Assembly (NCBI GenBank): GCA_030916565.1
Contig: JAUPWL010000003.1
Coordinates: 1-46,720 of the forward strand
Length of the DNA stretch: 46,720 bases
Direction: 5' to 3'
DNA from: Patescibacteria group bacterium
GTDB taxonomy: Bacteria; Patescibacteriota; Saccharimonadia; Saccharimonadales; Saccharimonadaceae
The notes below the pieces were generated by a model. The model saw nothing but the letters and a program-made list of their open reading frames with translations, had not been told where the DNA came from and searched no databases. The stretch's first letter is position 1; every line of letters begins with the position of its first letter. This document shows positions 233-4,168 of this stretch, piece after piece. The translations under genes were made by a program, and so were the position numbers.

Positions 233-2452
233 GATCAGCCAAATATTCTCGTTGTCGGTGATGACGACCAAGCGATCTATGGATTTCAAGGTGCCGATAT
301 TGGTAACATTCTGCAGTTCGAAGAAACCTACCCACAGACGACCAAAATCCCGCTACTTGAAAACTATCGCAGCGTTGCACCGATACTCGAAACCGCTAGC
401 CAAGTCATTGCCCAGAGCGACGAGCGCATCCCGGGCATAGACAAAAGCCTCCAGGCAAAGACGACTGCGCCTGCCGCCATGTCCGAAATTGTCGAATTCG
501 CCACGCCGCACGAAGAGCGAAAATGGATTGCCGATAGCATTCGCGCGCTCCTCGATGCGCATGAAAAACCCTCCGAAATCGCCGTCATTGCACGCAAGCA
601 TAAAGACCTGGAATCGTTGATTGGTTATCTAACTGATAATGACATCGCGATCAATTACGAACGCAAAGAGGATGTGCTTGATGACGAAATTATCAAGCTC
701 GTTGAACATATCGGCGCGGTCGTCCACGTAATTAGTATCGAACAGCACGACGACGCAAATGGCATGCTACCAGAATTACTCGGGCATCCAATGTGGGGCA
801 TCAACCCACGCACGCTATGGGAGATCAGCCTGTCCGCGTATAAAGACCGTAAACAATGGCTTGAAATCATGCCAGACCATGAATCAACCAGCCCACTATT
901 TGAGTGGTTACTCGTGACCGCGGGACAAGCACTCCACCTGCCCCTCGAACGTATGATGGACGTGATTATTGGTAACTCATCACTGATCGAATCATACACA
1001 TCACAACTCAAAGAATACTACTTTTCAAACAGTGAACGTGAGAACAATCTAGCAATGTATACCATCCACCTGGAAAACCTATCCAGTATTCGTAAAAAGC
1101 TTCGTGAGCACTATTCGACGCTGAAAAAGCCACTACTCGGTGACTATCTGAATTTCATGCAAGATAACCGTGCTGCAAAGATCAAAATATCAGCCAAACG
1201 TCATATCGGTGCAGAAGAATCAGCCGTCAAATTAATTAGCGGTCACGGATCAAAAGGCCTCGAATTTAATCACGTGTTTATTGTTAATGCTACTGATTCA
1301 CAGTGGGGAGAAAAGGCAAGCGGCAAAAGTGACACAATCAAATTCCCACCGCACCTCCGGCTCAAACAAAACAGCAATAGTTATAACGAACGACTGCGCC
1401 TGTTCTACGTTGCGATGACTCGTGCACGGCAAGGATTACATATTACGTATGCAAATGAAAACGACAACGGCAAAGAGATGTTGATGGCTGGATTTTTAGC
1501 CGAAAATAATCTGCCGCTGCGGACAATTGAGCACGATGAATCTATAGAAAACCGCGAGCAAGCCGCCGAAAAAGAATGGTACGAACCGATTCTCAGTATC
1601 CCTGATATAACGATTCAACAATACCTCGCACCAGAACTTGCGACCTACAAACTCAGCGCCACGCATTTTACTAATTTCCTCGACGTCAGTCGTGGAGGGC
1701 CACGCAAATTCCTGCTAAATAACATGCTGCATTTTCCGTCTGCACAAAGTTCGGCCGCCAGTTTTGGTAACGCCATTCACAACACGCTAGAAAGAATCCA
1801 TATGCACATGCGTACGCATAATACCCTTATGCCCGAAGAAGACATCATGGCAGAGTTTGAACGGCAGCTAGAGGCATACGCATTTAGTGATGACGAATGG
1901 CAGTATTTCCTCCAGAAGGGCCAAAATATTTTGCATATATTCCTGGCAGAACGAAGTGATATGTTCAACGCCAATCAAATAGCCGAACGGAATTTCAGCA
2001 ACCAAGACGTCACCCTAGATGATGCACGCTTGAAGGGAAAGCTGGACGTACTCGAAATCGATAAAGCGTCAAAAACCGCCAAAGTGATTGATTACAAAAC
2101 GGGTAAACCGCTCGAGTCATGGAGCAAGGGTAGTGAATACGATAAAATGAAGGCTCACCACTACCGCCAACAACTGCTATTCTACAAATTACTGATAGAA
2201 CATTCACGTGATTACCATAACTACACGATGACCGACGGCGAACTACAGTTCGTTGAACCAAACGACGCAGGGCATACCGTCAATCTACCGTTAGGCGATG
2301 TAGACACCGAAGAATTCGAGCGATTCAAACGCCTGGTTGGCATTGTCTGGCAACATATTAACGACCTGTCATTCCCTGACACGTCTCACTACGAACCAAC
2401 CGTTGAAGGCATTAAACAATTTGAGAATGACCTCTTGACGAAAAGTCAATAA
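233..2452 (+). CDS. UvrD/PcrA-like superfamily I helicase, 5'-truncated, with C-terminal RecB-like (PD-(D/E)XK) nuclease motif
   Basis: NILVVGDDDQAIYGFQGA (Walker B/motif III region), LLENYRS, LISGHGSKGLEFNHVFIV, RLRLFYVAMTRARQGL; C-terminal KGKLDVLEID...KVIDYKTGKP. N-terminal Walker A half is missing. Confidence 0.88.
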   Translation, partial: DQPNILVVGDDDQAIYGFQGADIGNILQFEETYPQTTKIPLLENYRSVAPILETASQVIAQSDERIPGIDKSLQAKTTAPAAMSEIVEFATPHEERKWIADSIRALLDAHEKPSEIAVIARKHKDLESLIGYLTDNDIAINYERKEDVLDDEIIKLVEHIGAVVHVISIEQHDDANGMLPELLGHPMWGINPRTLWEISLSAYKDRKQWLEIMPDHESTSPLFEWLLVTAGQALHLPLERMMDVIIGNSSLIESYTSQLKEYYFSNSERENNLAMYTIHLENLSSIRKKLREHYSTLKKPLLGDYLNFMQDNRAAKIKISAKRHIGAEESAVKLISGHGSKGLEFNHVFIVNATDSQWGEKASGKSDTIKFPPHLRLKQNSNSYNERLRLFYVAMTRARQGLHITYANENDNGKEMLMAGFLAENNLPLRTIEHDESIENREQAAEKEWYEPILSIPDITIQQYLAPELATYKLSATHFTNFLDVSRGGPRKFLLNNMLHFPSAQSSAASFGNAIHNTLERIHMHMRTHNTLMPEEDIMAEFERQLEAYAFSDDEWQYFLQKGQNILHIFLAERSDMFNANQIAERNFSNQDVTLDDARLKGKLDVLEIDKASKTAKVIDYKTGKPLESWSKGSEYDKMKAHHYRQQLLFYKLLIEHSRDYHNYTMTDGELQFVEPNDAGHTVNLPLGDVDTEEFERFKRLVGIVWQHINDLSFPDTSHYEPTVEGIKQFENDLLTKSQ

Positions 2453-2545
2453 ACGGTTAAAATAGGTAGTTGGAATACGACTGGGAACGCGTCAATGCAC
2501 CCACGTTTCGTACCTTACAAGTAGTATATTGGAACAGATAGCACG

Positions 2546-2662
2546 GACCTCGTCGCTTAGTGGCAAAGCACCACGCAACTGAATAGCATCTAGCGAGCTA
2601 GATACTGAGAGAATGCGTTCACATGGTCTCCGGGGACACAGGTTCGATTCCTGTCGAGGTCG
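2546..2662 (+). tRNA. tRNA-like gene with expanded/interrupted anticodon arm (isotype unresolved)
   Basis: 7-bp acceptor GACCTCG/CGAGGTC, D-arm GCTT-AGTGGCA-AAGC, T-arm ACAGG-TTCGATT-CCTGT, discriminator G. The region between D- and T-arms is far too long for one anticodon arm and contains ATCTAG-CGAG-CTAGAT. Total 117 nt. Confidence 0.5.
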
Positions 2663-2717
2663 CTTTTCGCCGTTCACACCGTTCGGCGAATCCTACGATT
2701 CATCGAAGGCTACACGA

Positions 2718-2879
2718 ATGGCACGGAAATGCGAAGCGTGCCACGGAAGTGGCACGTGCAAATGTAACGGCACTGGTTGCCCGAAATGTTCAAAATCCAA
2801 AGATTGGTTGAGCGGTAAATACGCCGGGAAATACCTTGGGCAATGCCCAGTGTGTCGCGGCAAAGGCTACATCAACTAG
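2718..2879 (+). CDS. Small zinc-finger protein (DnaJ-type CxxCxGxG motifs)
   Basis: MARKCEACHGSGTCKCNGTGCPKCSKSKDWLSGKYAGKYLGQCPVCRGKGYIN; the longer ORF from 2613 reads through the tRNA-like gene (RGHRFDSC signature). Confidence 0.6.
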   Translation: MARKCEACHGSGTCKCNGTGCPKCSKSKDWLSGKYAGKYLGQCPVCRGKGYIN

Positions 2880-2880
2880 A

Positions 2881-3095
2881 CTTGTGACAGAGGCGCATCG
2901 CGCGTGAAACGTATTGTTTTGCCACGATACGCAGCCCGCAGGTGACAAGGGTGGTTTTTACTCCTTTGCGGCCGCCTTGTGGCGCCTATGATGCCGCGCG
3001 CTGTCACGAGAATGACGGTACACGATCACTGTACTGTCGGCAGAACGGATGGCGGCCTTTCAAGGGGTTGGGGCCGCCATCCGTTTCTGTCATCG
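2881..3095. ncRNA. Candidate structured RNA region (strand uncertain)
   Basis: Long-range stem CTTGTGACAG (2881-2890) / CTGTCACGAG (~3001-3010); GACGGTAC/GTACTGTC; 14-bp perfect stem AACGGATGGCGGCC/GGCCGCCATCCGTT (3044-3057/3072-3085). No convincing ORF. Confidence 0.35.
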
Positions 3096-3157
3096 ATAAG
3101 CTTGCGGCGCATACCATAATGCAGCAAGTGGTAATGAGCAATATACTACTAACACAA

Positions 3158-3182
3158 CGCCCGTCGCATACAGCGGCGGGCG
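3158..3182. terminator. GC-rich hairpin, possible terminator
   Basis: CGCCCG-t-CGC-ataca-GCG-g-CGGGCG followed by atttcattt. Confidence 0.4.
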
Positions 3183-3211
3183 ATTTCATTTATACTAGAC
3201 AATTGATTACT

Positions 3212-4168
3212 ATGACATCATTTTGGAACGAACTACCACGACCGTTTTTTATACTGGCTCCTATGGAGGCAGTCACTGACGTGGTGTTTCGTCATGTCGT
3301 TGCAGCCGCCGCGCCACCTGACATCTATTTTACGGAATTTACCAACGCGACCGGTTGGGCACACGCTGGGGACAAAGCTATCGGTGGACGTCTGATCAAA
3401 ACAGATGACGAACACCCGATTGTCGCACAGCTATGGGGCGCTGATCCAGCATCAATGGAAAAGCTCGCCATGCACTGCGCCAAACTAGGATACGACGGCA
3501 TCGATATTAATATGGGATGCCCCGACCAATCTGCTGTCAAAAGCGGTGGCGGGTCAGGCATGATCAAAAATCCAGAGAATGCTGCGGCGATTATTGCTGC
3601 AGCGAAAAAAAGCGGCCTACCGGTGAGTGTGAAGACACGTTTAGGCTATAGTCGTCTGGATGAATGGCCAGAATGGTTAGGACATCTGCTGCGACAAGAC
3701 ATCGCAAACTTGACGATTCATCTCCGTACCAAAAAAGAAATGAGTAAAGTACCTGCACATTTTGAACTGATTGACGCTATCAAACAACTACGTGATGATA
3801 TCGCTCCGCAGACTCTATTGACCATCAATGGCGACATCAAAGACCGTCAGCAAGGCATAGAACTAGTTGAAAAACATGGCATTGACGGCGTCATGATCGG
3901 TCGTGGTGTATTCCACAATCTGTTTGCATTTGCAACATCTAGCGACTCAAGTAACAAAGACATAGAACTTGGCCTGCTCAACCTACAGCTCAATCTTCAT
4001 GACAAATATAACGTGCAGATGCCACGAAAATTCGACCCTTTGAAACGATTTTTCAAAATCTATATCCGAGATTTTCCAAATGCCGCAGAACTGCGCGATA
4101 CTTTGATGCATACAAAAAATACCGATGAAGTGCGCGATGTGTTAGCAAACTTTACAGTAGATAAGTAA
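3212..4168 (+). CDS. dus: tRNA-dihydrouridine synthase
   Basis: FILAPMEAVTDVVFRHVV, INMGCPDQSAVKSGGGSGMI, VSVKTRLGY, LTINGDI, DGVMIGRG typical of the Dus family; start MTSFWNELPRP chosen over the upstream frame-open start. Confidence 0.88.
   Translation: MTSFWNELPRPFFILAPMEAVTDVVFRHVVAAAAPPDIYFTEFTNATGWAHAGDKAIGGRLIKTDDEHPIVAQLWGADPASMEKLAMHCAKLGYDGIDINMGCPDQSAVKSGGGSGMIKNPENAAAIIAAAKKSGLPVSVKTRLGYSRLDEWPEWLGHLLRQDIANLTIHLRTKKEMSKVPAHFELIDAIKQLRDDIAPQTLLTINGDIKDRQQGIELVEKHGIDGVMIGRGVFHNLFAFATSSDSSNKDIELGLLNLQLNLHDKYNVQMPRKFDPLKRFFKIYIRDFPNAAELRDTLMHTKNTDEVRDVLANFTVDK

Follow-up and report, generated by a model that had tools for sequence, protein, structure and literature searches.

The bacterial Y RNA YrlA (RF02553) is a noncoding RNA that harbours a tRNA-like module, and in tmRNA (RF00023) a tRNA-like acceptor, D-loop and T-arm enclose other sequence. 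The ornate RNAs GOLLD and ROOL are large and structured, with unknown function, and GOLLD RNAs sometimes carry tRNAs in a variable linker (PMC12286853). Outside translation, a tRNA-like gene is represented by the Bacillus cereus pseudo-tRNA tRNAOther, which is single, of tRNA size and located beside an island (PMC3399842).

In the window, namely the whole 46,720-nt stretch of DNA analysed here, a tRNA-like element lies in a gap of about 780 bp, bordered upstream by a gene for a UvrD/PD-(D/E)XK helicase-nuclease (hereafter uvrD) and downstream by dus, as identified with Pfam. The RNA predicted for this gap resembles GOLLD and ROOL in being large and structured, but it differs from them in occupying a constant chromosomal position in a family of cellular organisms and in containing non-decoding tRNA-like parts and an ORF; the Rfam models of both gave no match up to an E-value of 5 in the window or 2 in ten relatives. 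Like YrlA, it would place a tRNA-like module inside a noncoding RNA. RF02553 produced a single sub-threshold match, covering adjacent tRNA-like folds in one relative (32.8 versus 69 bits), and no TROVE/Ro60 gene was found in 41 genomes. The element shares with tmRNA the enclosing arrangement, but is 117 nt long and devoid of CCA, and an identity with tmRNA was rejected, as the window region has no RF00023 match and most relatives checked possess a strong tmRNA match elsewhere. In contrast to tRNAOther, it forms part of a locus that is structured and hypervariable. By analogy, the uvrD–dus RNA may work like the GOLLD, YrlA or B. cereus pseudo-tRNA systems; since the defining model matches or partner genes of YrlA, tmRNA, GOLLD and ROOL were not found, we assign it to none of these families. 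In the Rfam scan of the window region, tRNA was the only model at or above its gathering score, and literature searches returned no description of such a locus.

A tRNA-shaped element between uvrD and dus

The element matches the tRNA model RF00005 from end to end with 42.9 bits (cmscan; gathering score 29; E-value 6.4e-6 in the window and 1.1e-7 in the 831-nt region). These limits agree exactly with those proposed in a first-pass annotation, which had also correctly described intact acceptor, D- and T-arms and a perfect six-base-pair hairpin (Table 1). The longer-range pairings that it had suggested, ACCA/TGGT and GAA..GCAT/ATGC..TTC, compete with each other and also with the most favourable predicted fold, in which ACGCA/TGCGT and GTCT-CCGG-GGAC are paired. 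Instead of a 5-bp anticodon stem with a 7-nt loop and U33, this fold displays a 46-nt branched arm, and the 3' end continues with CTTTT after G73. The folding energy of the isolated 117-nt element is unremarkable (z −1.07), and the argument therefore depends on the covariance score for tRNA and on the comparison with relatives.

Table 1. Features of the uvrD–dus gap (window coordinates).
Feature	Position	Strand	Remarks
Promoter-like TTGACG-17-TAAAAT	2435..2463	+	3' end of uvrD; 10/12 matches; likely RNA start
P1 5' arm (AGTAGTATATTG)	2520..2531	+	Proposed long-range closing helix
tRNA-like element	2546..2662	+	cmscan, predicted fold; no CCA
Acceptor stem of the element	2546-2552/2655-2661	+	GACCTCG/CGAGGTC, 7/7 paired
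D-arm of the element	2555-2569	+	D-stem 4/4, GG in loop
Extended branched arm replacing the anticodon arm	2573..2618	+	ACGCA/TGCGT, inner TAG/CTG, 6-bp hairpin (predicted fold)
Perfect hairpin ATCTAG-CGAG-CTAGAT	2588..2603	+	Sequence and predicted fold; inside the branched arm
Small variable-arm-like hairpin GTCT-CCGG-GGAC	2626..2637	+	Predicted fold
T-arm of the element	2638-2654	+	T-stem 5/5, TTCGATT loop
N73 = G; C74	2662; 2663	+	3' end of the element
Cys-rich 53-aa ORF (CxxCxGSG ... CxVCRGKG)	2718..2879	+	Similar to ORFs of G004 and G076
P1 3' arm (CAATATACTACT)	3139..3150	+	Proposed long-range closing helix
Terminator-like hairpin	3158..3182	+	Ends RNA unit ahead of dus; position common to relatives
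−10-like TATACT of dus	3191..3196	+	dus ATG at 3212

With regard to the other signals in the gap, shuffled versions of the region yield similar counts of promoter-like (mean 1.2) and terminator-like (mean 0.8) sites, and position and conservation therefore outweigh the quality of the match. Similar promoter-like elements occur at the corresponding position in the loci L064, L065 and L067, and several relatives have a TTGACA-TATAAT promoter directly 3' of uvrD, together with a common 5' hairpin. Across the genus, a TATAAT-like box is conserved about 10-15 nt ahead of the dus ATG and is preceded by a terminator-like hairpin.

The genome of origin, an incomplete assembly, has 41 tRNA-model matches in total. 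ARAGORN finds 40 other tRNAs, of which 38 encode CCA, and the unit from 2464 to 3190 is present as a single copy. Two further tRNA calls are unusual: a second tRNA-Asp(GUC) (L028:129-215; G000:C52:33831-33914) combines a Leu-like body of class II with C33, a G1-U72 pair and CCA, and may be an odd tRNA or a tRNA-like gene, while a tRNA-Val(AAC) (L027:86-162; G000:C51:11386-11460) carries the unusual A34 anticodon and no CCA.

Variation of the element across the family

The region upstream of dus was collected from 132 genomes of the same Saccharibacteria family, an assignment based on the 16S probe TM7-580F, which we take to be specific for TM7/Saccharibacteria. The probe matched exactly in 8 of 31 relatives, three of them from the family, and had no match in the incomplete genome of origin. 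In 110 of the 132 genomes dus is preceded by uvrD, and 100 gaps exceed 150 nt. A pattern combining acceptor, D-arm and T-arm was searched on both strands and in shuffled sets; the raw counts were 44 on the dus strand, two on the opposite strand and 0.33 per shuffled set. With a score of at least 20, and after removal of one doubtful AT-rich match, 42 elements in 34 genomes were retained. Covariance scans concur with this search and add a few elements, including a sub-threshold tRNA-Sec-like one; this fold (L075:578-670, minus strand; 43 bits, gathering score 47) is one of three tRNA-like elements upstream of dus in its locus. A single gap contains at most three elements (L067). Gaps with a detected element have a median length of 944 nt, versus 700 nt for those without. 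About three quarters of the 132 genomes lack a detectable element, which is thus either dispensable to the locus or diverged beyond detection. In 20 genomes from other families, the region upstream of dus contained neither uvrD nor a tRNA-like element, and downstream of 20 uvrD genes from other families no such element was found, most of them being followed by an ORF start within about 100 nt.

The middle of the element varies widely, from a tetraloop hairpin (L058) to 5- and 8-nt loops and inserts bringing the total length up to 156 nt, and the anticodon arm is absent altogether in L038. A separate arrangement is seen in a tRNA-Gly-like element (L044:799-954), where a long insert closed by CGGCACG/CGTGCCG occupies the D-loop and not the anticodon loop. 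By a lenient test, 10 of the 42 elements have a decodable anticodon arm, compared with 30 of 34 ordinary tRNAs of the genome of origin, and CCA is encoded in four, C74 being present in 40; on these counts, some elements could be real tRNAs. The idea that the anticodon loops are sealed was dropped, as some ordinary tRNAs fold likewise in RNAfold. In contrast to this middle, the ends remain paired. Among the 41 distinct elements, 97.6% of acceptor pairs are standard within elements versus 55.6% when halves are swapped; the scanner requires acceptor pairing, so the former value is partly built in, but the spread of pair types is not inflated by it. For the T-stem, pairing amounts to 98% and falls to 82% on swapping. 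Compared with G004 (L070), the window is 80% identical over the 65 nt of the T-arm and next hairpin, and six of the seven acceptor pairs have changed on both sides, all still being paired. A DNA search within the genus for an ortholog of the element recovered T-arm pieces only.

The larger unit and its exchangeable core

Folding of full-length gaps against dinucleotide-shuffled controls gave a median z of −8.75 (20 genomes, 12 shuffles each), and −9.1 for the window. As only 3 of 35 genomes clearly showed a helix directly enclosing each tRNA-like element, a general test for a long-range closing helix (P1) was used instead. In 50 of 97 gaps, the best long-range helix exceeded those of all six of the gap's own shuffles. 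A P1 of the GACAG type is found in 29 genomes in 15 distinct versions, all of them fully paired, against 77.5% with arms swapped; six positions vary, each with two to four pair types. Relatives thus possess the covarying long-range helix of a structured ncRNA, and the support for P1 in the window is positional: the candidate AGTAGTATATTG/CAATATACTACT scores 27 versus a shuffle mean of 27.6, which is not significant alone, but its offsets are those of the significant P1 in L064 (G003), with the 5' arm 70 versus 71 nt after uvrD and the 3' arm 82 nt ahead of the dus match start in both. The P1 arms might instead be the terminal inverted repeats of a transposon, a reading that we disfavour, the site being fixed and the unit single-copy in its own genome.

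Between these ends, the core turns over rapidly. Of five close species pairs, four have ends that are 72-99% identical and a middle at 52-58%, a level which we take to be about chance for such global alignments; the fifth pair keeps 81%. In L075 and L111, with ends 93-99% identical and a middle at 57%, the middle and its ORF have been replaced, and in the tRNA-like element common to both the changes are confined to the D- and T-loops, the variable region and N73. Such fast turnover suggests diversifying selection or cassette exchange.

The 53-aa Cys-rich ORF of the window has a counterpart in the equivalent position of G004 (L070), with 41% identity, and a distant match in G076, 310 bp ahead of dus. 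The gaps of other genomes contain ORFs of about 50 aa that are unrelated. Gaps such as L075, L142, L131 and L115 hold a second kind of mini-ORF; it codes for about 50 aa rich in Q, A, R and E, probably helical, has strong ribosome-binding sites and no Pfam match above cut-off, and is exchanged with the Cys-rich ORFs between close species.

Interpretation of the locus

The computations show a structured, strand-fixed, family-specific and hypervariable locus whose non-decoding tRNA-like modules are under pairing constraint. The support consists of predicted secondary structure, a constant location and orientation, acceptor and P1 arms that change in a compensatory manner, the disappearance of the anticodon arm and of CCA, and a core that is swapped while the ends stay. 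Very probably, the element is a tRNA-shaped module, and not a codon-reading tRNA, within a large, fast-changing and probably non-coding RNA; that it is a non-decoding part of a structured locus is a conclusion we hold with good confidence. The best explanation, which we consider reasonably probable as a whole, is that the element is a non-decoding tRNA-like module of a strongly structured RNA, encoded by a single-copy gene of about 700 nt lying between uvrD and dus. Of the three options raised in the first-pass annotation, a tRNA-like regulatory RNA comes nearest to this explanation, but the structured uvrD–dus locus had been missed.

Its two other options, a tRNA with a short intron and an inserted pseudogene, find no support. 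ARAGORN makes no call at the element when introns are disallowed; with introns allowed, a check that had been suggested, it reports a 79-nt tRNA-Ser(ACT) with a 39-nt intron, which could in principle be spliced to a genuine tRNA-Ser(ACU). This reading is highly improbable, as it implies a C-A mismatch in the anticodon stem, an A34 and no CCA, and as Ser tRNAs GCU, UGA, CGA and GGA, all present in the genome, already serve every Ser codon, so that the forced anticodon is not needed. No group I intron model appears among the matches in the 831-nt region, weak ones included, in agreement with the initial opinion that the insert looks too short for such an intron, and the same locus in relatives, another proposed comparison, shows unrelated and frequently loop-less arms: some have tetraloops or 5-nt loops, some an insert in the D-loop, and in others the anticodon arm is missing. 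If the elements were tRNA pseudogenes in decay at a hotspot of integration, the hypervariable core would be accounted for, and islands are often flanked by tRNA genes (PMC3399842), but the compensatory changes by which acceptor and T-stem pairing is kept, the single orientation, the strong folding and the covariation of P1 speak against decay, and no long ORFs of the integrase kind were seen in the gaps; we judge it very unlikely.

More weight is due to the possibility that the gap is a small-protein gene, with the RNA structure and tRNA-like parts only controlling the processing, stability or translation of its mRNA. The Cys-rich ORF, which may be the main functional product of the gap, has been retained there in both G004 and G076, and many gaps hold ORFs with strong ribosome-binding sites; against this, an unrelated ORF takes its place when close species are compared, and none is evident in some gaps, on non-systematic reading, which leaves this alternative unlikely, if still one to reckon with. 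Decoys, i.e. non-decoding mimics soaking up tRNA-cutting enzymes or phage factors in an arms race, would explain why acceptor and elbow persist despite the turnover of the anticodon arm and of the entire core, but they leave the large rest of the RNA unexplained, and no phage, toxin or defence link was found; we regard them as distinctly unlikely. Finally, the location of the elements upstream of dus and on its strand would suit a tRNA-mimicking leader through which Dus represses its own gene. This is scarcely credible given the terminator-like hairpin and separate promoter that intervene before dus, and dus genes of other families lack the element.

For the preferred non-decoding module, we can propose that the locus is transcribed as one RNA from about 2470 to 3182, as suggested by the predicted promoter- and terminator-like sites, and that the tRNA-like part adopts the usual elbow of a tRNA. 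It could then be a docking or processing module for partners that read only the acceptor and elbow, such as RNase P, RNase Z or elbow-modifying enzymes, which would stabilise or mature the larger RNA. This mechanism is tentative, and we would sooner doubt it than rely on it. It is conceivable, if somewhat short of probable, that the locus represents an unrecognised class of large RNA in one Saccharibacteria family, with a conserved shell and exchangeable modules replaced between close species as under diversifying selection. In this provisional scheme, the shell would comprise the promoter, 5' hairpin, closing helix and terminator, and the modules the non-decoding tRNA-like domains, hairpins and unrelated mini-proteins. 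If so, streamlined parasitic genomes of about 1 Mb would have used tRNA folds repeatedly to build a cellular RNA without a decoding role for them, and dozens of natural variants could show which tRNA parts a non-translational partner reads. The automatic tRNA annotation at this locus, with its odd Pro, Gly, Val and Phe 'tRNAs', is probably often wrong.

At the start of the contig (window 1-226), a flagellin C-terminal-like frame (Pfam Flagellin_C, E-value 6.1e-5) is fused in frame to uvrD where the Walker B region is expected, and is probably an assembly chimera at the contig edge.
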